From positions 2,539,760-2,603,759 of the forward strand of contig NZ_LMGU01000001.1 of assembly GCF_001427525.1 (NCBI RefSeq): 64,000 bases of DNA, given 5' to 3'. Shown here one piece after another: positions 4,774 through 40,288 of the stretch. Each line of letters begins with the position of its first letter. The stretch's first letter is position 1. The notes beneath the pieces are model-generated. The model was given only the letters and a program-made list of their open reading frames with translations. It searched no databases and had not been told where the DNA came from. The DNA comes from Microbacterium sp. Root61 (GTDB lineage: Bacteria; Actinomycetota; Actinomycetes; Actinomycetales; Microbacteriaceae). Position numbers and translations under genes: made by a program.

Positions 4774-4821
4774 TTTCCCTCGAGACTGCAGTCGAGCTTT
4801 CCCTCGAGACTGCAGTCGAGC
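4774..4821. repeat. Perfect tandem duplication of a 24-bp unit
   Basis: Bases 4774-4797 and 4798-4821 are identical. The unit contains CGAGACTGCAGTCGAG, the left arm of the 67-bp palindromic element that follows, so the left arm has been duplicated. It lies between the divergent SCP-like gene and purD. Confidence 0.9.
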
Positions 4822-4871
4822 CTCCAGACTGCGGGCTTTTCCCACCGTCTCGAGGCTCCGTTGCAGTCTCG
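4805..4871. repeat. 67-bp palindromic intergenic element, family B copy 1
   Basis: It begins CGAGACTGCA and ends with the inverse TGCAGTCTCG, with a smaller central hairpin (GGG..CCC). The same termini and exactly the same length recur at 22028-22094 and 40222-40288. Reverse-complemented, this copy aligns with copy 3 as written. It lies between divergent promoters, so it is not simply a terminator. Confidence 0.85.
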
Positions 4872-4963
4872 GTGACGGAGAGGTGACGGAGACGCGGCGG
4901 TGCCGGCATCAGGCGCTGGGGTCGGGCGGGCGGAGACCGGGGGCGCGGCGACACCGCCGCCGA

Positions 4964-4969
4964 TAGGCT
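4964..4969 (+). promoter_or_regulatory. -10 box of purD (leaderless)
   Basis: TAGGCT is followed by six bases and then the GTG at 4976. The GGAGGG in those six bases would lie at the very 5' end of the transcript, too close to serve as a normal ribosome binding site. Confidence 0.6.
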
Positions 4970-4975
4970 GGAGGG

Positions 4976-6244
4976 GTGCGAATCCTTGTCCTCGGCTCCG
5001 GCGCGCGCGAGCACGCCATCATCCTCGCGCTGAAGGCGGAGGAGGCCGGACACGAGCTGTTCGCCGCCCCCGGCAACGCCGGAATCGCGCACGACGCGAC
5101 CCTCGTGACGCTCGACGGCACCGATCCCGCCGCCGTCACCGAGTACGCGAACGACGAGAACATCGACCTCGTCGTGATCGGCCCCGAGGCGCCGCTCGTC
5201 GCCGGCGTCGCCGACGCCCTGCGCGAGCGCGGCATTCCGGTGTTCGGCCCCGGCAAGGCCGCCGCGCAGCTCGAGGGGTCGAAGGCGTTCGCGAAGCGGA
5301 TCATGGAGTCCGCCGGGGTCCCGACCGGGCGCGCGGTGCGCGCCCACACCCGCGCCGAGGTCGAGTCCGCGCTCGACGAGCTCGGCAGTCCGCACGTGGT
5401 CAAGGCCGACGGCCTGGCCGCCGGCAAGGGCGTCATCGTCACGGCCGACCGCGCCGAGGCTCTCGCCCACGCGGACACCTATCTCCCGTCCGGGCCGGTG
5501 CTCATCGAGGAGTTCCTCGCCGGGCCCGAAGTCTCGCTGTTCTTCCTCAGCGACGGCGACCACGTGCTGCCCCTGAGCCCGGCACAGGATTACAAGCGCC
5601 TGCGCGACGGCGACGAAGGCCCCAACACCGGCGGCATGGGCGCGTACTCGCCGCTCCCCTGGCTGACCGAGCGCTTCGGCGGCGAGGCCGACTTCGTGCA
5701 GCTCGTGACCCGCGAGGTCGCCGAGCCCGTCATCCGCCAACTCGACTCCGAGGGCACGCCCTTCATCGGCCTCCTCTACGCCGGCCTCATCATCACCGAG
5801 GCCGGCATCAAGGTCATCGAATTCAACGCCCGCTTCGGCGACCCCGAGACGCAGGCCGTGCTGCCCCGGCTGCTCGACCCGCTGTCCGGACTGCTGCTCG
5901 CCGCGGCATCCGGCAACCTCGAGGACCACCCGCTGCCCGCCTTCGCCGAGGCCGTCGCCGTGACGGTCGTCGTCGCGAGCGAGGGCTACCCCGAGGCGCC
6001 GATCATCGGCCGCGAGATCACCGGACTGGATGCGGCGGCCGCCGTCGACGGCGTGCACCTGGCCCACGCCGCCACCGCGGAGCGCGACGGTGCGCTGGTC
6101 GCGACCGGGGGCCGCGTGCTCAACGTCGTCGCGCTCGGCACGACGTTCGCCGAGGCGAGCGCCCGCGCCTACCGCGCCGTCGCCGAGGTCTCCCTCGACG
6201 GCGCCCAGTACCGCACCGACATCGCCGCCCGCGTCCGGGAGTAG
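4976..6244 (+). CDS. purD: Phosphoribosylamine-glycine ligase
   Basis: PurD joins phosphoribosylamine and glycine with ATP to make GAR, the second step of de novo purine synthesis in the cytosol. The 422 residues fit the family. Visible are the N-terminal [15 protein letters not shown], the ATP-grasp region ([13 protein letters not shown]), [10 protein letters not shown] and the metal-binding [18 protein letters not shown]. The start is the GTG at 4976, because the [11 protein letters not shown] motif follows directly and a -10 lies six bases upstream. Other purine genes follow in the window (purC, purS, purQ, purL, purA), all in separate transcription units. Confidence 0.97.
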
Positions 6245-6387
6245 ACGCTCACCGGTCGGGTCAGGAGACGGTTCGTCCCAACCGGTCGCTCAGTGAACGC
6301 GGTTCGGCGGCGTGAGCCGGAGAGCAGAAGGTTCACCCTGAGCATGTGACGTACTCGAGGTCGGCGGAGCCCCGAGCACCGCGCAGC

Positions 6388-6393
6388 TAAGGT
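6388..6393 (+). promoter_or_regulatory. -10 box of lhgO-like gene (leaderless)
   Basis: TAAGGT lies seven bases before the ATG at 6401. The intervening CGGAGGC could help initiation only if transcription starts further upstream. Confidence 0.5.
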
Positions 6394-6400
6394 CGGAGGC

Positions 6401-7603
6401 ATGACCGAGCGCATCGGCATCATCGGCGGCGGCATCGTCGGCATCGCACTCGCCCGTGCACTCGGCGCGCGCCGCGCGGAGGTGACGGTGCTGGAGAAGG
6501 AGACCCGACTCTCCCAGCATCAGACCGGCCACAACTCGGGCGTCGTGCACGCGGGCCTCTATTACAAGCCCGGATCACTGAAGGCCACGCTGTGCGCGGC
6601 GGGCCGCGTCTCCATCCGCGAGTTCTGCGAGGAGAAGGGCCTGCCCCACCGCGAGGTCGGCAAGCTCGTGGTCGCGGTCGACGAGTCCGAGCTCGGTGCC
6701 CTCGCCGAGATCGAACGGCGGTCGATCGAGAACGCCGTGCCGGATCTCGCCCGCATCGACGACGTGGCCGCGCTTCGCGAGATCGAACCGCACGTCGCGG
6801 GTGTCGCCGCCGTGCACTCGCCGCACACCGCGGTGGTGGACTACGCCTCCATCACCGAGGCGATGGCACAGGACGTGCGGGCCGCCGGTGGTCGGGTCCT
6901 GCTGGGCCACGAAGTCACCGGGATCCGGCTCGAGAACGGCACGGTGCGGGTGACCACGCCCGTGTCGGAGGACGTGTTCGACCGCGTCATCGTGTGCGCC
7001 GGGCTGCAGTCCGATGCGGTAGCCCGCCTGATCGGGGCCGACCCGTCGCCGAAGATCCTCCCGTTCCGCGGCGAGTACTGGGAGCTCGCCCCGGAGCGCA
7101 CCGACCTGGTGCGCGGCATGATCTATCCGGTCCCCGACCCGCGCTTCCCCTTCCTCGGCGTGCACTTCACGCGCGGGGTCTACGACAACGTGCATGTCGG
7201 CCCCAACGCGGTCCCCGCACTCGCGCGCGAAGGCTACAAATGGCTCACGATCTCGGTCAAGGACACCTGGGAATCGCTCCGCTGGCCCGGCGCATGGCCG
7301 CTCGCCAAGGAGCACTGGCGCATGGGCGTCGATGAGATCTCCGGCTCTCTGATCAAGCCGCTGTACTTCCAGAAGGCGCGACGGTTCGTGCCGGAGCTGA
7401 AGATGTCGGATCTCGCGCACAAGACCGGCGCCGGCGTCCGCGCCCAGGCTTGGGGCAGCAGCGGCGAGCTGCTGGACGATTTCGCCGTCGATCAGGTCGG
7501 CCCCGTCACCCTGCTGCGCAACGCCCCCTCGCCTGCGGCGACCTCATCGATCGCGATCGCCGACTTCGTCATCGAGCACTACCTGACGCCCAGCCCGCGC
7601 TGA
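6401..7603 (+). CDS. lhgO: L-2-hydroxyglutarate oxidase family FAD enzyme
   Basis: This 400-residue flavoprotein of the DAO superfamily most likely oxidises L-2-hydroxyglutarate to 2-oxoglutarate at the membrane, as LhgO (YgaF) does. The FAD dinucleotide motif GGGIVGIALARALGA begins near residue 8. The family stretch HNSGVVHAGLYYKPGSLKA, with its conserved HAGLYY, follows near 47-65, and FRGEYWEL and GVRAQAW are present in the second half. The ATG at 6401 is fixed by the Rossmann motif and the -10 box. It stands alone between purD and the siderophore-interacting protein gene. Family membership is clear, while substrate is inferred from similarity. Confidence 0.88.
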   Translation: MTERIGIIGGGIVGIALARALGARRAEVTVLEKETRLSQHQTGHNSGVVHAGLYYKPGSLKATLCAAGRVSIREFCEEKGLPHREVGKLVVAVDESELGALAEIERRSIENAVPDLARIDDVAALREIEPHVAGVAAVHSPHTAVVDYASITEAMAQDVRAAGGRVLLGHEVTGIRLENGTVRVTTPVSEDVFDRVIVCAGLQSDAVARLIGADPSPKILPFRGEYWELAPERTDLVRGMIYPVPDPRFPFLGVHFTRGVYDNVHVGPNAVPALAREGYKWLTISVKDTWESLRWPGAWPLAKEHWRMGVDEISGSLIKPLYFQKARRFVPELKMSDLAHKTGAGVRAQAWGSSGELLDDFAVDQVGPVTLLRNAPSPAATSSIAIADFVIEHYLTPSPR

Positions 7604-7639
7604 TCCGGGCATTGCGGTGCCGAGGAGGCCAGCCTGGAC

Positions 7640-7670
7640 CGCGTCGCTCGCGCTCACCGAGCGGGACGCG
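7640..7670 (+). terminator. Candidate terminator after lhgO
   Basis: CGCGTC pairs with GACGCG, and inside that stem CGCTC pairs with GAGCG around an ACC loop, with an asymmetric bulge between. No U-tract follows, so this is a weak candidate. Confidence 0.35.
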
Positions 7671-7743
7671 ACGACCTCGCCTAGCCACAGCGTGGTTGGC
7701 TGGACAGGGGCGCTCCGTGTCGGCGTCCGCGAGGAGGAACACC

Positions 7744-8637
7744 ATGACGGATGCCGCCACCACTCCCGTGAGCGCCGGTCGAGCCGGTCGGCCCCCCGCC
7801 GACACCACATCGCCGTTCTTCCGTGCCGGCGGGCGCAACCGGTTCACGGCGCGCCCCGCATCGGTCGTCGCCGTCAGCACACCGGCGCCGGACTTCGTGC
7901 GCGTGACCCTCACCGGACCGGACTTCGCCGACTTCGTCTCGGGCGGACCGAGCGACCACATCCGCCTCTTCCTGCCCGACCCCGCGACCGGTGAGCTCGT
8001 CGCACCGGCGCCGGTCGGACCCGACGAGGACGGCATCATCCGGCCCGAGGGGCAGACCTTCTCGCGCGACTTCACCCCGCTCGCGATCCACACACTGCCG
8101 GACGGCGCCGTCGCGGTCGACGTCGACTTCTTCCTGCACGCCGATGCCGGACCGGCCTCGGGCTGGGCAGCGCGCGCATCCGTCGGCGACAGCATCGTCG
8201 TGGTCGGTCCCCGCGGCTCCAAGGCCGCGCCGCAAGGCGTCAGCCGCGCCGTCCTGATCTGCGACGAGACTTCGCTGCCGTCGGTCGCGCGCTGGGTGCG
8301 CGAGCTCCCGCCGACCGCCCGGATCGACATCATCGCGGCCCTGCCCGGCTCGGGCGACTGGGTCGCGGACTACCTCGGCGTGGCCGGGTCAGAGCGCGTG
8401 GCCGTGCACGTCGTCGCTCCCGAGGCCACCGAGGCCGCGCTCGACGCGCTGGATCCGATCGACGCGGGCACGTACGTGTGGGCGGCGGGCGAGGCATCCG
8501 CTCTCGTTCCGCTGCGTCGCCACCTGCGCCGCACGCTCGGGCTGCCGTCGGAGCAGGCGTCCGTCAGCGGCTACTGGCGCAGCGGCGTCGTCGGCTTCGA
8601 CCACCACTCCCCGGTCGACCCCTCCGACCCGGACTGA
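7744..8637 (+). CDS. Siderophore-interacting FAD-binding protein
   Basis: The 297 residues match the SIP/ViuB family, cytoplasmic flavoproteins that reduce ferric siderophores with NAD(P)H to free the iron. The FAD-binding barrel covers about residues 30-155 (RPASVVAVSTPAPDFVRVTL, then FTPLAIH near 108) and the NAD(P)H-binding half follows (VLICDETSLPSVARWVRELP; AAGEASALVPLRRHLR). The C-terminal YWRSGVVGFDHH is a family signature. The ATG at 7744 has GAGGAGGA 7-14 bases upstream; reading further upstream passes through the end of lhgO. It is a second iron gene near hmuTUV, but I found no convincing DtxR box in front of it. Confidence 0.88.
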   Translation: MTDAATTPVSAGRAGRPPADTTSPFFRAGGRNRFTARPASVVAVSTPAPDFVRVTLTGPDFADFVSGGPSDHIRLFLPDPATGELVAPAPVGPDEDGIIRPEGQTFSRDFTPLAIHTLPDGAVAVDVDFFLHADAGPASGWAARASVGDSIVVVGPRGSKAAPQGVSRAVLICDETSLPSVARWVRELPPTARIDIIAALPGSGDWVADYLGVAGSERVAVHVVAPEATEAALDALDPIDAGTYVWAAGEASALVPLRRHLRRTLGLPSEQASVSGYWRSGVVGFDHHSPVDPSDPD

Positions 8638-8685
8638 CCTGCGCGGCGTTCGACTCACTGCGGAGTACGCACGGTCGAACCCACC

Positions 8686-8746
8686 CGCGAGACGTGGCCA
8701 ACGTACCCGAACCAGGTCCGGGAAGCACCGTTTGCCACGTCTCGCG
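8686..8746. repeat. 61-bp palindromic intergenic element, variant of family A
   Basis: Perfect 13-bp inverted arms CGCGAGACGTGGC and GCCACGTCTCGCG enclose 35 bp. Size and intergenic position match the family A elements, and the arm starts CGCGAG as theirs do, but the rest of the arm differs. It lies between the convergent SIP and MFS genes and may also act as a bidirectional terminator. Confidence 0.7.
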
Positions 8747-8758
8747 TGAGGCCGCCCC

Positions 8759-10288
8759 TCAGGCCCCCGCGTCGACCTTCGCCGCGTGCCAGTCCTCGTT
8801 GCTCGACCCCCGCGGCGCGCGCAGGAACAGCATCACGACCGCGGCCAGCAGCAGCACCACGGGCGGCAGCAGCAGGGCCTGCGACATCGCGGTCGAGAAC
8901 CCGTCCACGACGGCGGCGGGGAGCTGCCCATGACCGAACCCGCTCTGCGCCGAGGACGCTCCCGGAAGGTTCGCCTCGAGCCGGGACTGCATCCAGACGG
9001 CGATGGCCGCCGAGCCGAGCACGGAGCCGACCGTGCGGGTCGTGTTGTACACCCCGGCGCCGGCACCGGCCTGCTGGATCGGCAGGTCGCGGTTGGCGAT
9101 GGTGGCCAGCGGCCCCCACATCCCGGCGCTGCCGATGCCCAGCACCGCGGAGGGCAGCAGGAACATCCAGATCGGCGTCTCGGCGTTCATCAGTGTCGAA
9201 TACCAGATGAGTCCGCCCGCGAACAGCACCAGTCCGGGCACGAGGATCAGGCGCGGATCGGTGCGGTCCAGCAGCTTGCCGGCGAACGGCGACAGGATGC
9301 CGGCGAACACCGCCATCGGGATCAGCAGCAGGGCCGATTCGGTGGGGGTGAGCCCGCGCGCCAGCTGGATGAAGAACATCATCGGCAGCGACATCCCGGT
9401 GACGGCGAAGCCGACCGCGGCGATGCCGATGCTGGAGATGGAGAAGTTGCGGCTGCGGAACAGCTCGAGCGGCACCAGCGGTTCCTTCTTGCGACGGCTC
9501 TGCTGCCAGATGAAGAGGCCGAGCACCGCGACGCCGGTGAGGATCATGCCCCACACCGTGATCGGTCCCCAGATCACGCCCCAGTCGTATGTCTCGCCCT
9601 CCTGCAGCCCGAAGACGATGAGGAAGAGGGCGATCGCGCTGAGGAAGACACCCAGGATGTCGAAGCTGTGCGAGTGCGTCTCGAGCTTCGGAACGAGGAT
9701 CCACGCGGCGACGAAGCCGATGATGCCGACGGGCACGTTGACGAAGAAGATCCACTCCCACCCGAGGCCATCCACGAGGAAGCCGCCGGCGAGAGGCCCG
9801 ACGAGCATCGCGACACCCGAGGTCGCACCCCACAGGCCCATGGCCGCACCGCGGCGGTTCGGCGGGAAGGTGCGCGTGATGATCGCCATGGTCTGCGGGG
9901 TCATCAGCGCGGCACCGAGTCCCTGCACGGCGCGCGCGGCGATGAGCATGTCCAGCGTCCCCGACAGACCGCACCACAGCGACGACAGCGTGAAGACCGT
10001 GAGACCGATCAGGTAGATGTTCTTCGGCCCGAAGCGATCGCCCAGGCGACCGGTGACCAGCAGCGGCACGGCGTAGGCCAGAAGGTAGGCCGAGGTCACC
10101 CACACCACGTTGTCGAGGTTGTTCGTGTGCGGGTCGAGCGCGGCCTTGATCGCCGGGTTCGCGACCGAGACGATCGTGGTGTCCACCAGGATCATGAAGA
10201 ATCCGATGACCAGCGCCCACAGGGCTGGCCACGGACTGCGTGCGGTGGGGGCGACGGATGCCGCGGCCCGGGTCGTCTGTTCGGTCAT
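8759..10288 (-). CDS. MFS drug exporter, 14-segment DHA2 (EmrB/QacA) type
   Basis: This 509-residue inner-membrane transporter probably exports drugs or toxic compounds in exchange for protons. Motif A GRLGDRFGPKNIYLIGL lies in the loop after segment 2, the DHA motif DTTIVSVANPAIKAAL is in segment 1, and motif C is represented by VAMLVGPLAGGFLVDGLGW in segment 5. The length and roughly 14 hydrophobic segments fit DHA2. The start overlaps the stop of the PadR-family gene by four bases, so regulator and pump are co-translated, a common arrangement in which the regulator senses the pump's substrate. The substrate cannot be told from sequence. Confidence 0.9.
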   Translation of the reverse strand: MTEQTTRAAASVAPTARSPWPALWALVIGFFMILVDTTIVSVANPAIKAALDPHTNNLDNVVWVTSAYLLAYAVPLLVTGRLGDRFGPKNIYLIGLTVFTLSSLWCGLSGTLDMLIAARAVQGLGAALMTPQTMAIITRTFPPNRRGAAMGLWGATSGVAMLVGPLAGGFLVDGLGWEWIFFVNVPVGIIGFVAAWILVPKLETHSHSFDILGVFLSAIALFLIVFGLQEGETYDWGVIWGPITVWGMILTGVAVLGLFIWQQSRRKKEPLVPLELFRSRNFSISSIGIAAVGFAVTGMSLPMMFFIQLARGLTPTESALLLIPMAVFAGILSPFAGKLLDRTDPRLILVPGLVLFAGGLIWYSTLMNAETPIWMFLLPSAVLGIGSAGMWGPLATIANRDLPIQQAGAGAGVYNTTRTVGSVLGSAAIAVWMQSRLEANLPGASSAQSGFGHGQLPAAVVDGFSTAMSQALLLPPVVLLLAAVVMLFLRAPRGSSNEDWHAAKVDAGA

Positions 10289-10911
10289 TGCCGTGCAGCC
10301 TTTCGGTCAGCGAGATAGCGCTCGGAGTGCGGACCGAGTTCGGCGGGCCCCCAAGCGAAGACATGGTTTTCGAGCCGGTCGATGAGCCCGTCGAGCCAGA
10401 TGAGTTCGGCCCCGACCAGCACGTCGTTCCGCTCGAGCTCGAGGAGGAACTGCTCGGGCACCCCGCGGGCGCGCGCGCCATGATGCCCTGCGCTCTGCAG
10501 CTCCTGCCCCGCGGCGAGCGCAGCCCGCCGGATGCCGAGCAGGTCGATGACCTCGTCCCGGTCGAGGTTGTGCGCCTCGGCGATGGCGACGCGGAACTCG
10601 GCGGGACGATCGATGCGCGGCAGCTCGCGCCGCACCCATTCGATCACCGCGGCGCCGCCGGCCTCGGTGACGCCATAGGTGGTGCGTTCGGGGCGGTTGC
10701 CGTCACGATCGACGCCGGTCTCGACGAGGAGGCCGGCCCGTTCGAGCCGCGCGACCGTGTGGTAGAACGTGCCGTTGGTCATCGGGACGAGACGGTCGGA
10801 CCGCCGCTGGCGCAGCAGCCGCATCATCTCGTACGGGTGCATGTCGCCCTCGCGGAGCAGCGCGAGCATCATGAGTCCGAGCGGCGTCAGCCGATCGACA
10901 ACATCCTTCAC
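10285..10911 (-). CDS. PadR-family transcriptional repressor
   Basis: This 208-residue winged-helix regulator has the PadR N-terminus (LGLMMLALLREGDMHPYEMM; then MTNGTFYHTVARLERAGLL with the wing GNRPERTTYGVTEAG) and a C-terminal helical dimer domain (about 110-205). It should repress its own operon, which includes the downstream MFS pump. The GTG at 10911 has GAGGAG upstream at normal spacing. A 16-bp palindrome 47 bp upstream is the probable operator. The effector is unknown. Confidence 0.9.
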   Translation of the reverse strand: MKDVVDRLTPLGLMMLALLREGDMHPYEMMRLLRQRRSDRLVPMTNGTFYHTVARLERAGLLVETGVDRDGNRPERTTYGVTEAGGAAVIEWVRRELPRIDRPAEFRVAIAEAHNLDRDEVIDLLGIRRAALAAGQELQSAGHHGARARGVPEQFLLELERNDVLVGAELIWLDGLIDRLENHVFAWGPAELGPHSERYLADRKAARQ

Positions 10912-10957
10912 AGGTGCTCCTCTGGTCGCAGCCGAGCGGTGATTACTCCGGACCGAC

Positions 10958-10973
10958 TAGTCCACATGGACTA
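10958..10973. promoter_or_regulatory. Probable PadR operator
   Basis: TAGTCCACATGGACTA has perfect 7-bp arms around two bases. It lies upstream of the PadR-family gene on its promoter side, and 68 bp before the divergent purC start. A palindrome of this size is typical of PadR dimers. Confidence 0.65.
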
Positions 10974-11028
10974 TACCTCCACCAATGCACCGCCTCCACC
11001 CCGCACCACGCCCGAGCGCGCGCTCCGC

Positions 11029-11034
11029 GATAAT
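11029..11034 (+). promoter_or_regulatory. -10 box of purC (leaderless)
   Basis: GATAAT lies six bases before the GTG at 11041, with no ribosome binding site between them. Confidence 0.6.
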
Positions 11035-11040
11035 GGGCGA

Positions 11041-11970
11041 GTGACTTCATCCCTCGCATTGTCCGGCTGGCGCCACGTGTACTCCGGCAAGGTGCGCGAC
11101 CTCTACGTACCGGCCGACACCCCCGACGGCGCCGACGCCGCGCGCCTGCTCGTCGTGGCCAGCGACCGCGTGAGCGCGTTCGACCACGTGCTCGAACCCG
11201 GCATCCCGGGCAAAGGCGAACTGCTCACGACCCTGAGCCTGTGGTGGTTCGACCAGCTCGCCGGCGGCGACGGCGGTCGACGCATCCCGAACCATCTCGT
11301 GGCCGATCACCGACTGGGCGCCGACGACTCCGCGCACGAGGTCATCCCCGCCGAGGTCGCCGGACGCACCATGCTCGTCAAGACCCTGGTGATGTACCCC
11401 GTCGAGTGCGTCGTGCGCGGCTACCTCACCGGCAGCGGCTGGGTCGAGTACCAGGCCGACGGCACCGTCTGCGGCATCCCGCTGCCCGCCGGACTCACCG
11501 ACGGCGACCGCCTCCCCGAGCCGATCTTCACCCCGGCGTACAAGGCGCCGATGGGCGAGCACGACGAGAACATCTCGTACGCGCAGACCGTGGAGCTGGT
11601 CGGAGCGGATGTCGCGGCCGCCCTCCGCGACACGTCGCTGGAGATCTACCGCCGTGCCGCGCAGCTCGCCGAGGCGCACGGCCTGATCCTCGCCGACACG
11701 AAGTTCGAGTTCGGCGCCGATGCCGACGGCGTGCTCACCCTCGGCGACGAGGTGCTCACCAGCGACTCGTCGCGGTACTGGGATGCCGAGGCCTGGCGCA
11801 TCGGCACGACCCCGGCGGCGCGGATGGCGAGTTTCGACAAGCAGATCGTGCGCGACTGGCTCGCCGCGAACTGGGACAAGCAGGGCACGCCGCCCGAGCT
11901 GCCCACCGAGATCGTCGAGCGCACGGCCGCCCGCTACCGCGAGCTGCTGGAGCGTCTCACCGGCGGCTGA
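11041..11970 (+). CDS. purC: SAICAR synthetase
   Basis: PurC condenses CAIR with aspartate using ATP to give SAICAR in purine synthesis. The 309 residues carry YSGKVRDLY at the N-terminus, ASDRVSAFDHVLEPGIPGKG, the VVRGYLTGSGWVEYQADG segment and LADTKFEFG with SDSSRYWDA near the C-terminus, all classic for the family. The GTG at 11041 is chosen because the conserved region begins soon after and a -10 lies six bases upstream; the frame further upstream is a shadow over the PadR-family gene. The permease gene follows after 77 bp. Confidence 0.97.
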   Translation: MTSSLALSGWRHVYSGKVRDLYVPADTPDGADAARLLVVASDRVSAFDHVLEPGIPGKGELLTTLSLWWFDQLAGGDGGRRIPNHLVADHRLGADDSAHEVIPAEVAGRTMLVKTLVMYPVECVVRGYLTGSGWVEYQADGTVCGIPLPAGLTDGDRLPEPIFTPAYKAPMGEHDENISYAQTVELVGADVAAALRDTSLEIYRRAAQLAEAHGLILADTKFEFGADADGVLTLGDEVLTSDSSRYWDAEAWRIGTTPAARMASFDKQIVRDWLAANWDKQGTPPELPTEIVERTAARYRELLERLTGG

Positions 11971-12047
11971 GTCCGCCGCATCCGCCTCGCAACGACGCGA
12001 GGCGACACCTCGCAGTCCCCGACTGCACCATCATCGAAGGAGCGCCC

Positions 12048-13379: not shown

Positions 13380-13417
13380 CGCCCCTCCGCCCGCGAGCCC
13401 CTGGCACCCGGCCCCCT

Positions 13418-13485
13418 CCTCGCGAGCTCACAAAAACGGCACGCTCAATACGACGTGAGCGGACACTTCTTGTGATCTCGCGAGG
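13418..13485. repeat. 68-bp palindromic intergenic element, family A copy 1
   Basis: The arms CCTCGCGAG(C)TCACAA and TTGTGATCTCGCGAGG enclose a centre that includes GCACGCTC. It is related to the elements at 14441-14500, 20679-20740 and 20867-20926. It lies between the permease and VOC genes, which run in the same direction. Confidence 0.85.
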
Positions 13486-13541
13486 ATCGGGGAGGACACA
13501 GCTCGGGAATCGAATGCCCGTCCGCAGCGTTGTCTATACGC

Positions 13542-20866: not shown

Positions 20867-20926
20867 GCGAGCTCACAAGAAGTGCACGCTCAGCAGGGCT
20901 GGACCGGGCCGTTCTTGTGAGCTCGC
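20867..20926. repeat. 60-bp palindromic intergenic element, family A copy 4
   Basis: This is the cleanest copy, with perfect 15-bp arms GCGAGCTCACAAGAA and TTCTTGTGAGCTCGC. The inner left part GTGCACGCTC is shared with copy 1 in part. It ends about 30 bp before the purS -10. Confidence 0.9.
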
Positions 20927-22027: not shown

Positions 22028-22094
22028 CGAGACTGCACCCGCGCGTCCAGCCAGCGGGTATCGCCCGCAGTCTCGAAGTCCCGTTGCAGTCTCG
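22028..22094. repeat. 67-bp palindromic intergenic element, family B copy 2
   Basis: It begins CGAGACTGCA and ends TGCAGTCTCG, with a central hairpin of AGCGGGT and CGCCCGC type. It lies between the convergent purQ and DUF1761 genes. It has the same orientation as copy 1 and the opposite one to copy 3. Confidence 0.88.
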
Positions 22095-31326: not shown

Positions 31327-31388
31327 CCGCACCACAGCAGTCGTGCGGCATCCGTGCCGGCTCGCGCCGGCCGAAACGGGAGTCTCCT

Positions 31389-31472
31389 GTGCTCGATGTG
31401 ATCTATCTCGTGGCCACGCTGGCGCTTTTCGCGCTCGTGGCGCTCATCGCGAAGGGGGTCGAACGACTGTGA
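31389..31472 (+). CDS. 27-residue membrane peptide leading the kdp operon
   Basis: The frame encodes [20 protein letters not shown] followed by AKGVERL, one hydrophobic segment with a basic tail. GGGAG precedes the GTG at 31389 and the stop overlaps the kdpF start (GTGA). I recall similar tiny proteins, with a VERL-like end, before kdpF in other actinobacteria; the function is unknown. It may aid Kdp assembly or couple translation into kdpF. Confidence 0.65.
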
Positions 31473-31558
31473 TCGTGTTCTCGATCGTCGCCGCCGTCCT
31501 CGCCGTCGCCGCCATCGCCTACCTGGTGGTCGCCCTCGTGAAGCCGGAGCGGTTCTGA
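31469..31558 (+). CDS. kdpF: KdpF, small subunit of K+-transporting ATPase
   Basis: This 29-residue single-span peptide starts [20 protein letters not shown] and ends VKPERF, the classic KdpF ending. It stabilises the KdpABC complex in the membrane. The GTG at 31469 overlaps the preceding small ORF, and its TGA overlaps the kdpA ATG (TGATG). Confidence 0.9.
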
Positions 31559-33246
31559 TGGGCCCGGATGCCGCGACGATCTGGCTCGGAGTCCTCCAGT
31601 TCGCGACCCTTCTCCTGATCCTCGGGCTGCTCTACCGTCCCCTCGGCGACTGGATCGCCCGCACGTATACGAGCGCGAAGGACTGGCGCGTCGAGCGCGG
31701 TCTCTACCGCATCGTCGGCGTCGACCCCCGCGCGGAACAGACCTGGGGCGCCTACGCCCGCGGGGTGCTGATCTTCTCGCTCATGGGCTTCCTGTTCGTC
31801 TACGCCCTGCAGCGCTTCCAGGCGGTCCTCCCGTACAACCTCGGCCTGCCCGCCGTGCCGGAGGGGCTCGCGTTCAACACCGCGGCATCCTTCGTCGCCA
31901 ACACGAACTGGCAGTCCTACTCGCCCGAGCTGACGATGGGCTACACCGTGCAGCTCGCCGGGCTCGCGGTGCAGAACTTCGTGTCGGCCGCGGTCGGCAT
32001 CGCCGTCGCGATCGCCCTCGTGCGCGGCTTCGCCCGTCGCGGCTCCAGCACCCTCGGCAACTTCTGGGTCGACCTGGTGCGCGGCATCACCCGCATCCTG
32101 CTGCCGCTCGCCGTCATCGGCGCGATCGCGCTGATGATCGGCGGGGTCGTGCAGAACTTCAACGGCTTCACCGAGGTGTCCACGATCACCGGGGGCACTC
32201 AGGTGCTGCCCGGCGGGCCGGTCGCCTCGCAGGAGGTCATCAAGGAGCTCGGCACCAACGGTGGCGGCTTCTTCAACGCCAACTCGTCGCATCCGTTCGA
32301 GAACCCCACCGCGTGGACGAACGTGCTCGAGATGCTGCTGATCCTCGCGATCCCGTTCGCGATGCCCCGCGCTTTCGGCAAGATGGTCGGCGACAACCGC
32401 CAGGGCTACGCGATCCTCGCCGTCATTGGCACCCTGTTCCTGGTCACGGTCGTCGCGGGAACGTGGCTGGAGGCGCTCGGCAACGGCACCGCCCCGCAGC
32501 TCGCCGGCGCCCCGATGGAGGGCAAGGAGCAGCGGTTCGGTCTGTTCGGCTCGACCCTGTTCGCCGGCGTCACGACCCTAACCTCCACAGGCGCGGTCAA
32601 CTCGATGCACGACTCGTACACGGCCCTCGGCGGCATGATGCCGATGATCAACATGATGCTCGGCGAGGTCGCCCCCGGCGGTGTCGGCTCGGGTCTGTAC
32701 GGGATGCTGGTGCTCGCGGTGATCGCCGTGTTCGTCGGCGGCCTGCTGGTCGGACGCACCCCCGAGTACCTCGGCAAGAAGGTGGGCCCACGCGAGATCA
32801 AGCTCGCCAGCCTGTACATCCTGGTCACGCCGACCCTCGTGCTGCTGGGCACCGCGCTCAGCTTCGGCATCCCCGCGATCGCGTCCGACGTCGAGAACGT
32901 CTCGATCTGGAACCCCGGCGTGCACGGCATGAGCGAGGTGCTCTACGCGTTCACCTCGGCCGCGAACAACAACGGGTCGGCGTTCGCCGGCCTGACCGCG
33001 AACACCCCGTGGCTGAACACCGCCCTGGGCGTCGCGATGCTGCTGGGGCGCTTCATCCCGATCGTGCTCGCCCTCGCGCTGGCCGGCTCCCTGGCCGCCC
33101 AGTCCACCCGTCCCACGACGGTCGGCACCCTGCCCACGCATCGCCCGCAGTTCGTCGGCCTCCTGGTCGTCGTCTCGGTGATCATCACGGCTCTCACCTA
33201 TTTCCCCGTTCTCACGCTGGGTCCCCTGGCGGAAGGTCTCGTCTGA
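31558..33246 (+). CDS. kdpA: K+-transporting ATPase, channel-like subunit A
   Basis: KdpA binds and conducts potassium in the high-affinity KdpFABC pump. The 562 residues carry the pore-loop regions [38 protein letters not shown] and [10 protein letters not shown], which form the selectivity filter, and about ten membrane segments. Length is typical. The ATG overlaps the kdpF stop. Confidence 0.97.
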
Positions 33247-33248
33247 TC

Positions 33249-35417
33249 ATGTCCACGACATCGCTCACCCCCGTTGCCGGCACCGTCGACAACGCGCACA
33301 CACCGAAACCGCCGACCTCGGCGCGCGCCTTCAGCTGGGCACAGCTCGTGCGCGCCCTGCCCGGCGCGCTGCGCAAGCTCAACCCGGCCGCCCTGTGGCG
33401 CAACCCGGTCATGTTCCTGGTCTGGGTCGGGGCCGCGCTGACAACGCTCATCGCCCTGGCCGAGCCCTTCCTCGGCGGCGCCGAGCAGTCCGGCGGCAGC
33501 GAGGTGCCGATGGGCTTCACCTGGGGCATCGCCGTCTGGCTGTGGCTCACGGTGCTCTTCGCAAACCTGGCTGAGTCGGTGGCGGAGGGCCGCGGGAAGG
33601 CGCAGGCCGCGAGCCTGCGCAAGACCCGCACCAGCACGATGGCCAACCGCGTCGCCTCCTACGACGCGAAGGCGGATGCCGCGGCCGAGCACGCGGCGCT
33701 GGTCGAGGTCGCCTCGGCCGAGCTGCAGCTCGGCGACGTCGTCATCGTCACCGCCGGCGACTTGATCCCCGGGGACGGCGACATCGTCCACGGCATCGCG
33801 ACCGTCGACGAGTCGGCGATCACGGGCGAGAGCGCCCCGGTCGTGCGCGAGTCCGGCGGCGACCGCAGCGCAGTCACCGGCGGCACCCGCGTGCTGTCCG
33901 ACCGCATCGTCGTGCGCATCACCTCCAAGCCCGGCGAGACCTTCGTCGACCGGATGATCGCGCTCGTCGAGGGTGCGAGCCGGCAGAAGACGCCGAACGA
34001 GATCGCGCTGAACATCCTGCTGGCGAGCCTGTCGATCGTGTTCGTCGTGGTCGTGCTGACGCTGAACCCGATCGCGTCGTACGCGGCAAGCCCCGTCAGC
34101 ATCCCGGTGCTCGTGGCGCTGCTGGTGTGCCTGATCCCGACGACGATCGGCGCGCTGCTGTCGGCGATCGGCATCGCCGGGATGGACCGCCTCGTGCAGC
34201 GCAACGTGCTGGCGATGTCGGGCCGCGCGGTCGAGGCCGCGGGAGATGTCACCACGCTGCTGCTGGATAAGACCGGCACGATCACCTACGGCAATCGGCG
34301 CGCGACGGACTTCGTCGGGATGCCGGGAGTGCCCGACCACGAGCTCGCCCGGGCCGCGGCCCTGGCCTCGCTCGCCGACCCCACCCCCGAGGGCACCTCG
34401 GTGGTGGAACTGGCTGCGGTCCGAGGTATCCGTGCGGATCTTCCCGGCGACGCGATCGTGGTGCCCTTCACGGCCCAGACGCGCATGAGCGGCGTGGACC
34501 TCGCCGACGGCACTGTCGTGCGCAAGGGCGCCGGGTCGGCCGTCACCGCATGGCTCGAGGCCGAAGGCGTCCGCATCGCCACCGGTGTGCGGGCACAGCT
34601 GATGAGCGAGACCGACGCGATCGCGATGAGTGGCGGAACGCCGCTGGTCGTGGCCGAGCTGGACGGCACCGGCCACGGCCGAGTGCTCGGCGTCATCCAC
34701 CTCAAGGACGTCGTCAAGGACGGCCTCCGCGAGCGCTTCGCCGAGCTGCGCAGCATGGGTATCCGCACGGTGATGATCACCGGCGACAACCCGCTGACGG
34801 CCAAGGCCATCGCGGCGGAGGCCGGCGTCGACGACTACCTCGCGGAGGCGACGCCCGAGGACAAGCTGGCGCTCATCATCCGCGAGCAGGAGGGCGGCAA
34901 CCTCGTCGCGATGACCGGCGACGGCACGAACGACGCTCCGGCGCTCGCGCAGGCCGACGTCGGCGTGGCGATGAACACGGGCACGTCGGCCGCGAAGGAA
35001 GCCGGCAACATGGTCGACCTCGACAGCGACCCGACCAAGCTCATCGACATCGTGCGCATCGGCAAGCAGCTGCTGATCACGCGCGGGGCGCTCACGACGT
35101 TCTCGCTCGCCAACGACATCGCGAAGTACTTCGCGATCATCCCGGCGATGTTCATGACGGTCTTCCCGGGGCTCGCGGCGCTGAACATCATGCAGCTGAG
35201 CTCCCCGGCATCCGCCGTGACGAGCGCGATCATCTTCAACGCGATCGTGATCATCATCCTGATCCCGTTGGCGCTGCGCGGAGTGAAGTACCGCCCGGCG
35301 AGCGCGTCGCAGATCCTGAGCCGGAATCTGCTCGTCTACGGACTGGGCGGCGTCATCGCCCCCTTCATCGGCATCAAGCTCATCGACATCGTCGTGAGCC
35401 TCATCCCGGGCTTCTGA
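33249..35417 (+). CDS. kdpB: K+-transporting P-type ATPase, subunit B
   Basis: KdpB hydrolyses ATP to drive KdpA. The 722-residue P-type ATPase has the phosphorylated Asp in [13 protein letters not shown] (about D340), the TGES loop ([18 protein letters not shown]), the nucleotide-binding region around [11 protein letters not shown] and the hinge [20 protein letters not shown]. The ATG at 33249 lies two bases after kdpA, and the N-terminal 60 residues form the usual cytosolic tail. The frame continues upstream over kdpA only as a shadow. Confidence 0.97.
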
Positions 35418-35439
35418 GCCCGCACCCAGGAGAGAACCC

Positions 35440-36051
35440 ATGTTCCCCACCCGCACCACCCTCCGCACCGCCGGGGTCGCCCTCCGCGCGATGCTCGCCT
35501 TCACCCTCATCCTCGGCATCGGCTACACCCTCCTGATCACCGGCATCGGCCAGGTCCTGATGCCGTGGCAGGCGAACGGCTCGATCATCACCGATACGGA
35601 GGGGGCCCCGGTCGGCAGCGCGCTGATCGGACAGTCCTTCACCGATGCCGACGGCAACGCCCTGCCCGAGTATTTCCAGTCGCGGCCCTCCGCCGCGGGG
35701 GCGGGGTACGACGGCGGCGCCTCCAGCGGCAGCAACTGGGGGCCGGAGAACGACGACCTCGTCACCGCGATCGAGGACCGCCAGGCCGCGATCGCGGACC
35801 TCGAGGGCGTGGATGTCTCAGCCATCCCGGCGGACGCCGTCACCGCGTCCAGCTCGGGCCTGGACCCGCACATCAGCCCCGCCTACGCGCTGCTGCAGGT
35901 CGACCGCGTCGCAGCGGCCCGGGGCCTGGATGCGACATCCGTCCGCGAGCTCGTGGAGTCGCAGATCCAGGCGCGCGACCTCGGCTACCTCGGCGAGCCG
36001 CGCGTCAACGTCCTCCAGCTCAACCTCGCGCTCGACGCGCTGCAGCGCTGA
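35440..36051 (+). CDS. kdpC: K+-transporting ATPase, subunit C
   Basis: KdpC has one N-terminal membrane segment (about 14-38) and an external domain that assists ATP and K+ coupling in KdpFABC. The 203 residues contain LIGQSFTDADGNALPEYFQS, the SSGSNWGPEN loop, DPHISPAYALLQVDRVAAAR and NVLQLNLALDAL, all conserved. GGAGAG precedes the ATG at 35440. Confidence 0.95.
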   Translation: MFPTRTTLRTAGVALRAMLAFTLILGIGYTLLITGIGQVLMPWQANGSIITDTEGAPVGSALIGQSFTDADGNALPEYFQSRPSAAGAGYDGGASSGSNWGPENDDLVTAIEDRQAAIADLEGVDVSAIPADAVTASSSGLDPHISPAYALLQVDRVAAARGLDATSVRELVESQIQARDLGYLGEPRVNVLQLNLALDALQR

Positions 36052-36071
36052 GCCGGCGACGGGGGAGGTCG

Positions 36072-36077
36072 TAGGGT
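36072..36077 (+). promoter_or_regulatory. -10 box of kdpDE (leaderless)
   Basis: TAGGGT is followed by seven bases and the ATG at 36085, so kdpDE probably has its own promoter in addition to read-through from kdpFABC. Confidence 0.5.
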
Positions 36078-36084
36078 GAAGCGC

Positions 36085-38607
36085 ATGAAGCGCGGACGAC
36101 TGCGGGTGCTGCTCGGCGCCGCCCCCGGCGTCGGCAAGACCTACGAGATGCTCGAGGAGGGGCGGCGGCTCCAGGGCGAAGGCCGGGATGTCGTCATCGC
36201 GGTCGTCGAGACGCACGGCCGTGCCGAGACCCAGGCGCAGATGACCGGCCTCGTCGAGGTTCCGCGCCAGGTCCTGTCCCACCGCGGGGTCGAACTCACC
36301 GAGATGGACGTCGACGCCGTGATCGCCCGCGCACCGCAGATCGCGCTGGTGGACGAGCTCGCCCACACCAACGCGCCCGGCGCGCGCAACGCCAAGCGCT
36401 GGCAGGACGTCGATGATCTGCGGGATGCCGGGATCGACGTCATCACGACCGTCAACGTGCAGCACATCGAGTCGCTCAACGACGTGGTCGAGCAGATCAC
36501 CGGCATCGTGCAGCGCGAGACGGTGCCCGATGCCGTGGTCCGCGGAGCCGACCAGACCGAGGTCGTCGACCTGGCACCGCAGTCGTTGCGGGATCGCTTG
36601 TCAGCTGGACTGATATACCCGGCCGAGCGCATCGATGCCGCATTGTCGAACTACTTCCGGCTCGGCAACCTCACCGCCCTACGCGAACTGGCGCTGCTCT
36701 GGCTGGCCGACGAGGTCGACAGCGCTCTGAAGACGTACCGCACCGAGCACGGCATCCAGGGCACCTGGCATGCGCGCGAGCGGGTCGTGGTGACTCTCAC
36801 CGGCGGCGCCGAGGGCGACACCCTCATCCGCCGCGGAGCCCGCATCGCGGCCCGCTCCGCCGGTGGTGAGCTGCTCGCCGTGCACGTGTCCAGCCAGGAC
36901 GGACTGCGCAGCGAGGCTCCCGGGGCTCTCACCGCCCAGCGCGCGCTGGTGGAGTCGCTCGGCGGCTCGTACCACCAGGTCGTCGGCGACGACGTGCCGC
37001 ACGCCCTCGTCGACTTCGCCCGCAGCGTCAACGCCACTCAGCTCGTCATCGGCGTGAGCCGCCGCGGCCGTCTCGCGACGGCGTTCACCGGCCCCGGCAT
37101 CGGCGCCACCGTCGTGCGCGAATCCGGCGACATCGACGTGCACATCGTCACGCACGCCGCCGCCGGCGGGCGGCTCCACCTGCCGCGCGTGACCGGCGGG
37201 GCGCTGAGCCTGAAGCGCCGCCTCATGGGTTTCGCCCTCGCGCTCATCGGTGGTCCGCTGCTGTCCTGGATGCTGTTCACCTTCAGCAGCGACGCCTCCA
37301 TCACCTCCGATGTGCTGGCCTATCAGCTGCTCGTGGTCGTGGTGGCCCTCGTCGGCGGCATCTGGCCCGCCCTGTTCGCCGCCATCCTGTCGGGCCTGAC
37401 TCTCGACTACCTCTTCGTCGAGCCGCTGTTCACGGTCACCATCGCCGACCCGCTGCACGCCCTCGCCCTCATCCTGTACGTCGTGATCGCCATCCTCGTC
37501 AGCTGGATCGTCGACCAGGCCGCCCGCCGCACCCGCGCGGCCCGTCGCTCCGCCGCCGAATCCGAACTGCTGGCGACGGTAGCCGGCAGCGTCCTGCGCG
37601 GACAGAGCGCCGTCCCGGCCCTCGTCAGCCGCACCCGCGAAGCGTTCGGGATGACAGGCGTCCGCCTCATCGGCAGCGACGGCGCCGTGCTCGCCACCGA
37701 CGGCGAGCCCGTCCCGGACGGCCGCGTCATCCGTCTCCCCGTCGGCGACAGCGCGTCGCCCCGGGCCACGCTCGAACTGCACGGCGGCGACCTGGATGCC
37801 TCGGAGCGACGTCTGCTCGACGTGATCGTCGCCCAGCTCGCGGCAGCGCTGGAACACACCGACCTGACCGAGACGGCCCGCGAGGCCGGCGTTCTCGCCG
37901 AGACCGACCAGGTGCGCAGCGCGCTGCTCTCGGCCGTCAGCCACGACCTGCGCCGCCCGCTCGCCGCCGCCGTCGCCGCGGTCGGCGGCCTCCGCGCGGC
38001 GGGTTCCGCCCTGTCCGCCGACGACAAGCGCGAGCTGCTCGAGACGGCCGATGAGAGCCTGGCCACGCTGTCGACCCTGGTCACCGATCTGCTGGACGTC
38101 AGCCGGGTCGAAGCCGGCGTCCTGGCCGTCTCGCTCTCCCCCGTCGACGCGGCCGAAGCCGTGCTCGCCGCGGTCGACGAGCTGGGACTCGGTCCCGTCG
38201 AGGTGGAGCTCGCGCTCGACCCCGAGCTGCCCCCGCTGCGCGCCGACCCCGTGCTGCTGCAGCGCGTGCTGGTCAACGTGCTCGCCAACGCGCACCGCCA
38301 CAGCCCCGACGGACGGCGCACGCGCGTGGCCACCAGCCGCCTCGGTGGCGTGGCGGAGATCCGCATCGTGGATCATGGACCGGGCGTGCCGATCGAGCGC
38401 CGCGACGACATCTTCGCGCCGTTCCAGCGCCTCGGCGACACCGACAACACGGCGGGTCTCGGACTGGGGCTCGCCCTCTCGAAGGGATTCACCGAAGGCA
38501 TGGGCGGCACTCTGACTCCCGAAGACACCCCCGGCGGCGGATTGACCATGGTCGTCGCGCTGCCAGTGGTGCAGGCATCCGCCCCCATCGAAGGAGCCGC
38601 CTCGTGA
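36085..38607 (+). CDS. kdpD: Potassium sensor histidine kinase
   Basis: KdpD senses low potassium and phosphorylates KdpE. The 840 residues show, in order, the N-terminal KdpD domain with a Walker-like loop (LLGAAPGVGKTYEMLEEGRR) and DELAHTNAPG, a USP domain (about 235-360), four membrane segments (about 385-485), a GAF-like region, HisKA with the phosphorylated His in SAVSHDLRRPLAA (about H619), and an ATP-binding domain (NVLANAHRHSPDG; DHGPGVP). I prefer the ATG at 36085 to the GTG at 36076, because the latter would overlap the -10 box. It overlaps kdpE by four bases. Confidence 0.95.
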   Translation: MKRGRLRVLLGAAPGVGKTYEMLEEGRRLQGEGRDVVIAVVETHGRAETQAQMTGLVEVPRQVLSHRGVELTEMDVDAVIARAPQIALVDELAHTNAPGARNAKRWQDVDDLRDAGIDVITTVNVQHIESLNDVVEQITGIVQRETVPDAVVRGADQTEVVDLAPQSLRDRLSAGLIYPAERIDAALSNYFRLGNLTALRELALLWLADEVDSALKTYRTEHGIQGTWHARERVVVTLTGGAEGDTLIRRGARIAARSAGGELLAVHVSSQDGLRSEAPGALTAQRALVESLGGSYHQVVGDDVPHALVDFARSVNATQLVIGVSRRGRLATAFTGPGIGATVVRESGDIDVHIVTHAAAGGRLHLPRVTGGALSLKRRLMGFALALIGGPLLSWMLFTFSSDASITSDVLAYQLLVVVVALVGGIWPALFAAILSGLTLDYLFVEPLFTVTIADPLHALALILYVVIAILVSWIVDQAARRTRAARRSAAESELLATVAGSVLRGQSAVPALVSRTREAFGMTGVRLIGSDGAVLATDGEPVPDGRVIRLPVGDSASPRATLELHGGDLDASERRLLDVIVAQLAAALEHTDLTETAREAGVLAETDQVRSALLSAVSHDLRRPLAAAVAAVGGLRAAGSALSADDKRELLETADESLATLSTLVTDLLDVSRVEAGVLAVSLSPVDAAEAVLAAVDELGLGPVEVELALDPELPPLRADPVLLQRVLVNVLANAHRHSPDGRRTRVATSRLGGVAEIRIVDHGPGVPIERRDDIFAPFQRLGDTDNTAGLGLGLALSKGFTEGMGGTLTPEDTPGGGLTMVVALPVVQASAPIEGAAS

Positions 38608-39278
38608 AGGTGCTCATCGCCGACGACGATCCGCAGCTCGTCCGTGCGCTGCGGATCACGCTGGCCGCGCACGGCTACGAGGTCGTCGCGGCACCCGACG
38701 GGGCGGCGGCCATCGCGCTGGCCGCGCAGGCGCATCCCGACATCGTGCTGCTGGACCTCGGGATGCCGCGGCTCGGCGGCGTCGAGGTCATCGAGGCGCT
38801 GCGGGGCTGGACGAAGGCACCGATCATCGTCGTGTCGGGCCGCACGGGTTCGGCCGACAAGGTGGAGGCCCTGGACGCCGGCGCCGACGACTACGTCACC
38901 AAGCCGTTCCAGATCGACGAGCTGCTGGCCCGGCTGCGAGCGCTGGGCCGGCGCACGGCGACCTCGACCGCCGATCCCGTCGTGCGGTTCGGTGACATCG
39001 TGATCGACCTGGCCGCCCACGACGTGACCCGTGCGGGCGCGCGGGTGCATCTGACCCCGACCGAGTGGCGGATGCTGGAGTTCCTCGCCCGCAACCCGGG
39101 CGCCCTCGTCACCCGCCAGACCCTGCTCAAGGAGATCTGGGCGAGCGAGCACGTCAGCGACTCCGGCTACCTGCGGCTGTACATGTCGCAGCTGCGCAAG
39201 AAGCTCGAGCCCGACCCCGCGCATCCGGTGCACCTGCTCACCGAATCCGGCATGGGCTACCGGCTCGCGCTCGACTGA
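38604..39278 (+). CDS. kdpE: Potassium response regulator
   Basis: KdpE is the OmpR-family regulator that activates kdp. The 224 residues comprise a receiver domain with the phosphorylated Asp at D51 (PDIVLLDLGMPRLGG) and KPF switch (DDYVTKPFQIDELLARL), and a C-terminal winged-helix domain (HLTPTEWRMLEFLARNPGAL; SDSGYLRLYMSQLRKKLEPD). The start overlaps kdpD. The direct repeats at 28197-28214 and 31231-31269 are its likely targets. The convergent terC gene ends three bases downstream. Confidence 0.96.
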   Translation: MKVLIADDDPQLVRALRITLAAHGYEVVAAPDGAAAIALAAQAHPDIVLLDLGMPRLGGVEVIEALRGWTKAPIIVVSGRTGSADKVEALDAGADDYVTKPFQIDELLARLRALGRRTATSTADPVVRFGDIVIDLAAHDVTRAGARVHLTPTEWRMLEFLARNPGALVTRQTLLKEIWASEHVSDSGYLRLYMSQLRKKLEPDPAHPVHLLTESGMGYRLALD

Positions 39279-39281
39279 GGC

Positions 39282-40181
39282 TCAGCCCAGGCCCGCGCGC
39301 GTTTCGTCGTCGAGGTCGGTGACACCCGCCACGGGCTTGGTCGAAAGCCCGACCGACCCAGCATCCGGATTCTTCGAAAGCGCGGCGCCGACGGCGACGG
39401 ACTCATCGACATCGGGATACGTCGGACGCAGCTGCACGGCCTGGCGGCGTACCTGCGCGCGCTTGGCCTTGCGCGCGGCGGCCCAGAGGTTCAACGCCTC
39501 GACCAGGATCGCGAACGCCATGGGCATATAGATGAGGGCCTTGTCGATGTGCGCGCCGAACCCCTCCGCGATGAGGAAGACACCGATCAGCAGGAGGAAC
39601 GACAGCGCCAGCATCTTCACGGTCGGGTGGGTGTTGACGAACGTGAAGATCCAGCGCGACGCGAACAGCATGATGCCGAACGACAGCACTACGACGGTGA
39701 TGATGACGATCATGTTCTCGGTCATGCCCACCGCGGTGATGACCGAGTCCAGCGAGAAGACGATGTCGAGCAGCAGAATCTGGGCGATCACCGAGCCGAA
39801 GGTGATCTGCGCCACCTTCTTGCCGGGATGCTCCTCTTCGGCGCCTTCGAGCTTGTGGTGGATCTCGGTGACGGCCTTGTAGACCAAGAACAATCCACCC
39901 GCGATGAGGATGAAGTCCTTCCACGAGAATCCGATGCCGAACCAGACCACGACGTCTTCCTTCAACGTGATGATCCACCCCGCGAAGAAGACCAGGAGCA
40001 CGCGAATCAGCATGGCGAGCGTCAACCCCAGATTGCGCGCCTTGGCCTGCTGCTCGACGGGGAGCTTGGAAGCGAGGATCGAGATGAAGATGACGTTGTC
40101 GACACCGAGCACGATCTCCAAGACGAACAGCGTCAGGAAGACAGCGATCAGGTCAGGAGTGAAGGCAAGGGTGAATTCCAC
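39282..40181 (-). CDS. TerC/YkoY-family membrane protein
   Basis: This 299-residue integral membrane protein has about seven segments and the TerC signature LEIVLGVDNVIFISILASKL with acidic residues inside the membrane, plus DIVFSLDSVITAVGMTENM. Members take part in manganese export or metal loading of secreted proteins. The older link to tellurium resistance is weak for single genes like this. The C-terminal 60 residues are cytosolic and unconserved. The GTG at 40181 has a TACGAT -10 six bases upstream. Confidence 0.88.
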   Translation of the reverse strand: MEFTLAFTPDLIAVFLTLFVLEIVLGVDNVIFISILASKLPVEQQAKARNLGLTLAMLIRVLLVFFAGWIITLKEDVVVWFGIGFSWKDFILIAGGLFLVYKAVTEIHHKLEGAEEEHPGKKVAQITFGSVIAQILLLDIVFSLDSVITAVGMTENMIVIITVVVLSFGIMLFASRWIFTFVNTHPTVKMLALSFLLLIGVFLIAEGFGAHIDKALIYMPMAFAILVEALNLWAAARKAKRAQVRRQAVQLRPTYPDVDESVAVGAALSKNPDAGSVGLSTKPVAGVTDLDDETRAGLG

Positions 40182-40187
40182 GTGCCC

Positions 40188-40193
40188 ATCGTA
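40188..40193 (-). promoter_or_regulatory. -10 box of terC-like gene (leaderless)
   Basis: On the minus strand TACGAT is followed by six bases and the GTG at 40181. Confidence 0.5.
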
Positions 40194-40221
40194 GGGGCCG
40201 CCCCGGTGGCGCCCCGCCCCG

Positions 40222-40288
40222 CGAGACTGCAACGGGAGGTCGAGACTGTGGCTGAAGCCCGCTGTCTCGACGCTCGGTTGCAGTCTCG
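40222..40288. repeat. 67-bp palindromic intergenic element, family B copy 3
   Basis: It begins CGAGACTGCA and ends TGCAGTCTCG. A nested hairpin, CGAGAC with GTCTCG and GGC-TGAA-GCC inside, occupies the centre. It lies between the terC-like gene and the acyl-CoA dehydrogenase gene, both on the minus strand. Confidence 0.9.

Follow-up and report, generated by a model that had tools for sequence, protein, structure and literature searches.

What accounts for the short palindromes of identical length and identical ends that lie between genes of Microbacterium sp. Root61? Three of them, 67 bp each, are found in the 64,000-nucleotide stretch analysed here (the window, G000:C1:2539760-2603759, from a genome, G000, of 4.02 Mb), and a preliminary description of the stretch likened them to REPINs, which are mobilised by a RAYT transposase. 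We find that the elements belong to a family dispersed through the genome and the genus, and that such palindromes are strongly associated with a gene, here called X, whose product is unrelated to RAYTs. With a probability of about one half, the elements form a REPtron-like system built on this unrelated protein and mobilised by it.

Palindromic elements in the window

The copies, and a motif adjoining the first, are listed below; strands were assigned with CGAGACTGCAACGG read as the leading end.

4805..4871, minus strand: copy 1 of the 67-bp element, between divergent genes; motifs at 4805-4814 and 4862-4871 (outer) and at 4824-4829 and 4847-4852 (inner)
4781..4804, plus strand: left end of copy 1 directly duplicated over 24 bp, which adds a further left-end motif at 4781-4790; duplication spanning 4781-4814
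22028..22094, minus strand: copy 2 of the 67-bp element, between convergent genes; motifs at 22028-22037 and 22085-22094 (outer) and at 22047-22052 and 22070-22075 (inner, the first of these decayed)
40222..40288, plus strand: copy 3 of the 67-bp element, between tandem genes; motifs at 40222-40231 and 40279-40288 (outer) and at 40241-40246 and 40264-40269 (inner)

The window sequence bears out the positions, the length of 67 bp, the ends CGAGACTGCA and TGCAGTCTCG, and the relative orientations given in the preliminary description (copies 1 and 2 on the minus strand, copy 3 on the plus strand), and the divergent, convergent and tandem settings are seen in the lists of open reading frames. Names used for the surrounding genes are putative, having been assigned by reading the translations. 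Folded as single-stranded DNA and compared with shuffled sequences, copies 1, 2 and 3 give z = -5.95, -3.14 and -7.12 respectively; the best fold of copy 2 differs from the full palindrome. A scan of the window against Rfam at the gathering threshold gave no RNA family match.

The idea that the stems carry compensatory changes is not supported by comparison with the other copies in the genome. Across 21 copies, palindromic pairing is no better than when the right-hand letters are re-dealt among copies: 85.4% of paired cells are observed against 85.8% after shuffling (376 of 500 shuffles as high), and the covariation score is 0.071 against 0.070. Nor does spacer pairing stand out in eight genomes for which part of the copies were used: of 500 shuffles per genome, between 99 and all 500 equalled or exceeded the observed value.

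A dispersed family of constant length

A search of the whole genome for the two exact ends, allowing 30-60 bp between them and 50-80 bp in total, recovers 21 copies, every one of 67 bp, whereas a reversed control pattern recovers none. The family is thus above chance, and the many genomic copies that had been anticipated exist. Within the genus, at least one exact-ended 67-mer is present in 66 of 366 genomes, reaching 53 copies in one of them (G121), with none from control patterns; one survey of 39 genomes from outside the genus found none. In the loci that we fetched, 147 of 179 exact-ended hits (overlapping and duplicate loci included) measure 67 bp and 11 measure 48 bp, that is, 67 minus a 19-bp register described below. 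Species differ in the interiors of their elements; length is kept, as is the place of the inner motif in most families. The flanks beyond the 67 bp often run on as CCG or CGG.

The intergenic location also holds beyond the window: 8 of 118 copies lie mostly within coding sequence, as predicted by codon-position GC and not taken from annotation, compared with 70% of random 67-mers. Among the 96 copies that could be placed between genes (22 of the 118 could not), 49 lie between tandem, 41 between convergent and 6 between divergent genes.

Some related observations concern other kinds of grouping and other hosts. Small clusters of elements, some 120-250 bp apart and partly beside X, occur at five loci (L035, L075, L084, L109 and L115), much like the clusters reported for REPINs in those parts of the literature available to us. 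Palindromes that share the ten-base ends but measure 56-58 bp appear in records from Mycobacterium/Mycobacteriaceae, Cellulomonas and Leifsonia (L036, L061, L079, L092, L046, L076 and L080), and look like members of other families. Viral contigs yielded a single match, of 61 bp.

A gene flanked by palindromes in many lineages

Comparison of element flanks among loci identified a shared neighbour, an open reading frame of approximately 340 codons, which is gene X. In the Root61 genome it lies outside the window, at G000:C1:965011-966039, with 67-mers on both sides. One or more palindromes lie close to the gene at all 30 of the best X loci, this one included, and the end motifs of the X-flanking 67-bp palindromes vary between species, the central 67-mers beginning with CGAGACTGCA, TGAGACGACA, TGAGACGAAT, CGAGAGTGCA, CGAGACCAGT, TGAGACGTCA and others. 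At a stricter threshold, and after dropping loci cut by contig ends (4 of 30 in the genus, 1 of 26 at the level of the order), a palindrome lies within 450 bp of X at 25 of 26 genus loci, on both sides at 15 of them, compared with 2 of 29 purQ loci and none of 50 shuffled loci used as controls. Across the order, where X was sought in 198 genomes and matched in 129, the same holds for 18 of 25 uncut loci; two of these 25 are from the genus, and both are negative. With respect to gene direction, palindromes lie upstream at 21 and downstream at 19 of the 26 genus loci, and upstream at 8 and downstream at 16 of the 25 order-level loci.

In the reverse approach, starting from elements, an X reading frame is present in 9 of 138 element loci (L016-L153), and in all nine an element lies within 140 bp of it. 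A close X homologue occurs in 48 of the 66 genomes with the CGAGACTGCA family against 68 of the other 300, as judged from E-values of the homologue search and uncorrected for phylogeny. The association between gene X and the repeats is strong. Two genomes with elements, G162 (six) and G332 (five), have no good X match, and their elements are perhaps orphan populations left after loss of X.

The X protein has no match in Pfam or NCBIfam when the Root61 sequence is used. PADLOC matches it to AbiEi (4.3e-6), some homologues carry AbiEi labels in public sources, and a structural model of X matches AbiEi-like domains together with nuclease domains resembling Vsr and I-Bth0305I, the latter a member of the EDxHD family. 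A search of PDB sequences with the X profile gave a chance-level match only, and absence from the list of folds was in no case a ground for excluding a family. On the strength of the model, X is predicted to be an AbiEi-like winged-helix protein with a C-terminal nuclease fold of the Vsr/homing-endonuclease type, whose acidic residues do not vary. A homologue of some degree is present in 323 of 366 genus genomes. The order gcvP-X-CPBP is found at 26 of 30 loci, the other four showing one of the two neighbours: the gene is vertically inherited between gcvP and a gene for a CPBP protease. The Root61 genome holds one close copy and two distant paralogues. X was not found in collections of phages and plasmids, a result that we take as neutral towards the host-nuclease explanation considered below.

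Gene lineage and repeat motif

The variant CGAGAGTGCA-N47-TGCACTCTCG, with one base changed at each end, is present in 14 of 366 genomes and absent with control patterns. Eight of ten X loci whose flanking arm is CGAGAGTGCA come from genomes positive for this variant (G232 by way of the flanking copy alone), as against 1 of 20 X loci lacking this arm. The interiors of X-flanking copies are nearest to dispersed copies of the same genome in eight of eight genomes, narrowly so in G144, in a comparison based on a sample of the latter (10 out of 19 for Root61, ten or fewer elsewhere). Over 23 loci, protein distance correlates weakly with motif distance (Mantel r 0.24, a value reached in 10 of 5000 permutations), and both distances follow descent.

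Four motifs in a 19-bp register

In the Root61 family the outer and inner CGAGAC motifs are spaced 19 bp apart, as measured in copy 1 from the outer to the inner motif on each side; the motifs within one arm are direct repeats, and the arms are mirrored about the centre of the element. This is not confined to one family. A strong direct repeat is present in 15 of 24 order-level palindrome arms, at 19 bp in twelve and 20 bp in three (5% of shuffled arms), and in 15 of 43 genus-level arms, at 19 bp in every case (7% of shuffled arms). Extra motifs at the ends of copies keep the same step, as in three motifs at 435385, 435404 and 435423 and in an 86-bp form in L100. Because direct repeats occur in this register within the arms, the dyad symmetry looks like four putative protein sites.

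Presence and absence among relatives

The preliminary description would have been contradicted by a family of three copies, or by one fixed at orthologous places in all relatives; neither is the case, as there are 21 copies, and copies 1 and 2 are missing in relatives. The CGAGACTGCA motif is missing within 400 bp of purQ, the site of copy 2, at 29 of 29 loci from relatives (the intergene is only 21 bp in G012), and from 28 of 28 intergenes orthologous to that of copy 1 for which both sides were found; one more locus showed a single side. Presence and absence between relatives are therefore seen, as had been anticipated, but no precise empty site was obtained. Among sister species, a site filled in G051 is without the element in G279 and G166; there is no clean junction here because the intergenes have diverged, differing by approximately 105 and 155 bp. 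Two further candidates for empty sites proved to be shared copies. Some elements are kept at orthologous places, one site being shared by five genomes. The purQ intergene holds other palindromes elsewhere: AGATCAGGAGATCTCGC... in G028 (L163, 2231-2301), and another, read by eye, in G006 (L155).

Direct repeats in the flanks, such as target-site duplications would leave, are no commoner than in shuffled pairs (in sets of 151 and 145 copies), either at the 67-bp edge or with edges moved outward by up to 15 bp. Isolated cells, for example that at shift 8, where 3 were counted and 0.5 expected, are taken as chance among 64 tests. Complementarity between left and right flanks, which may bear on insertion into terminator stems, is slightly higher than in shuffled pairs (13.8 against 13.0 with 6 bp skipped, about four shuffle standard deviations).

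Explanations for the association

Under the reading that we favour, the 67-bp elements would be non-autonomous dispersed palindromes with four short recognition motifs, which protein X recognises in trans. Acting as a multimer, X might bind the four motifs, and its nuclease might cut or nick at the element; repair or strand transfer would then copy the element into new intergenic sites. Drift in the specificity of X would change the flanking copies first, with the genome-wide population following. Binding of the motifs, nuclease activity and movement of the elements by X are all inferred. Extended to the order, this becomes a tentative proposal that we hold at slightly less than even odds: a class of repeat-spreading systems in one actinobacterial order, in which AbiEi-Vsr-type proteins each spread their own palindrome of four motifs in a 19-bp register, gene lineage and repeats switching specificity together, as a functional equivalent of RAYT-REPIN with a separate origin, in a homing-endonuclease-like enzyme.

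A syntenic, vertically inherited gene whose matches to AbiEi stem from a library of defence proteins could also encode a host nuclease of defence, repair or recombination, for which the palindromes mark places on the chromosome to be recognised or protected and are kept by selection; the strict length, and the persistence of some copies at orthologous sites, would suit such an arrangement. However, the CGAGACTGCA family ranges from 0 to 53 copies among congeners, is missing from most genomes with an X homologue, and has species-specific interiors, all of which looks like repeated amplification, and we consider maintained sites unlikely. Somewhat less likely again is that X is an autoregulator whose operators lie at its own gene and across a scattered regulon, or serve as decoys. 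The parts available to us of the work on AbiEi and Rv2827c describe binding to 23-bp inverted repeats in their own promoters, four in the case of Rv2827c (PMC7319586), which makes binding of the palindromes by the AbiEi-like X plausible and keeps this alternative alive, as does the palindrome upstream of X at most genus loci. Against it, palindromes are nearly as frequent downstream in the genus and more frequent there in the order, the dispersed copies are seldom between divergent genes, the acidic nuclease residues are invariant, and X has gcvP and CPBP as neighbours in place of a toxin gene.

Inverted ends, hairpins that fold better than shuffles and the 41 of 96 copies between convergent genes would also be found in miniature inverted-repeat transposable elements (MITEs) of a DDE-type transposon or in plain bidirectional terminators. 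Neither fits well: target-site duplications are not in excess at the tested offsets, as a MITE would require, and a terminator could function without the identical 10-bp ends, the fixed length of 67 bp or the linkage to X, so that we regard both as improbable. Classical REPINs moved by a RAYT, a Y1 HUH transposase, are the least credible alternative. Dispersed intergenic hairpins and a cognate gene flanked by them are indeed the REPIN/REPtron layout, as far as the accessible parts of PMC3733652 and PMC3116915 describe it, and as the closest functional analogue the earlier comparison stands. The machinery does not: the Y1-type transposase that was to be looked for is not detected, PF01797 (Y1_Tnp) having no match in the Root61 genome (the control matched in 5 of 14 genomes); neither a GTAG nor a CGTC tag, as at the ends of REPs, is present in the alignment of the 21 copies, whose ends are CGAGACTGCA and TGCAGTCTCG; the two motifs of each arm run in the same direction and do not form hairpins; and the flanked gene encodes a protein of another fold. 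Two defining features of this reading are thereby contradicted, and it would call for a Y1 gene that escapes the PF01797 model.

Relation to known systems

REPIN-RAYT systems share with the present one palindromes scattered between genes, a single gene that is inherited vertically and has its cognate repeats at its flanks, and change of gene and repeat in step, to judge from what was available of PMC3116915, PMC3733652 and PMC8266576. They differ in that X has a predicted AbiEi-like and Vsr-type nuclease fold and not Y1 HUH, with no GTAG tag, and in the four motif copies at a 19-bp register, the fixed 67 bp and the occurrence in Microbacterium and its order. The type IV antitoxins AbiEi and Rv2827c (6y8q, 1zel; PMC7319586, seen in part) resemble X in the fold of the N-terminal and middle domains and in having inverted repeats near the gene, whereas X has an extra C-terminal nuclease-like domain and repeats both on its two sides and genome-wide. 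The nucleotidyltransferase toxin gene expected beside an AbiE antitoxin is missing at the 26 of 30 loci where gcvP and CPBP stand, and no toxin gene was found beside X. Vsr (1cw0) and the homing endonuclease I-Bth0305I (3r3p) resemble the modelled C-terminal domain in fold and conserved acidic residues, but X sits between two chromosomal genes and is linked to short dispersed palindromes.

RAYTs are the enzymes linked to dispersed bacterial palindromes in the available portions of PMC3733652 and PMC3116915, and one large class, the CGTC REPs, is reported in the former without a dedicated transposase. The latter class is alike in that its dispersed palindromes are not tied to a RAYT; it has another tag and is reported from other phyla, and the present system has a candidate partner gene. 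X is a second type of protein, unrelated to RAYTs, whose gene accompanies dispersed palindromes across many lineages, and a literature search that excluded subscription papers and preprints, judged by its result lists, found no paper on this pairing. If X does move the elements, the fast-changing intergenic repeats of a large bacterial genus would be explained, a role would be given to a widespread protein that is often annotated as hypothetical or as an AbiEi antitoxin, and a single syntenic gene with many motif switches would offer a test bed for enzyme-repeat coevolution.

Further palindromes and X paralogues

A second family of palindromes is represented twice in the window, with no strand assigned:

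20867..20926: 60-bp palindrome, GCGAGCTCACAA...TTGTGAGCTCGC; core 20869-20924, equal to G000:C1:2560628-2560683
13422..13481: 60-bp copy of this family, decayed

With 22-52 bp allowed between the ends, GAGCTCACAA-N36-TTGTGAGCTC occurs four times in the Root61 genome, the other sites being G000:C1:94012-94067, C2:98606-98661 and C2:384561-384616, and is absent from the remaining 365 genomes. One of these copies adjoins an X paralogue (L186, 315 aa, with weak DUF559/MTES_1575 similarity below the cut-off). At the third X-like gene (L185), GGGGCGT motifs at 19-bp spacing are present on both sides, together with a 65-bp palindrome (L185 1339-1403, 2572-2597). Given the palindromes beside these two paralogues, all three X-like genes found in the Root61 genome each have a palindrome of their own.

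Two more palindromes were seen in the window. That at 8688-8744 (57 bp, CGAGACGTGGC...GCCACGTCTCG) is perhaps another member of this kind of element, and that at 50196-50249 (54 bp), immediately upstream of an ATG, resembles an operator of the usual kind.

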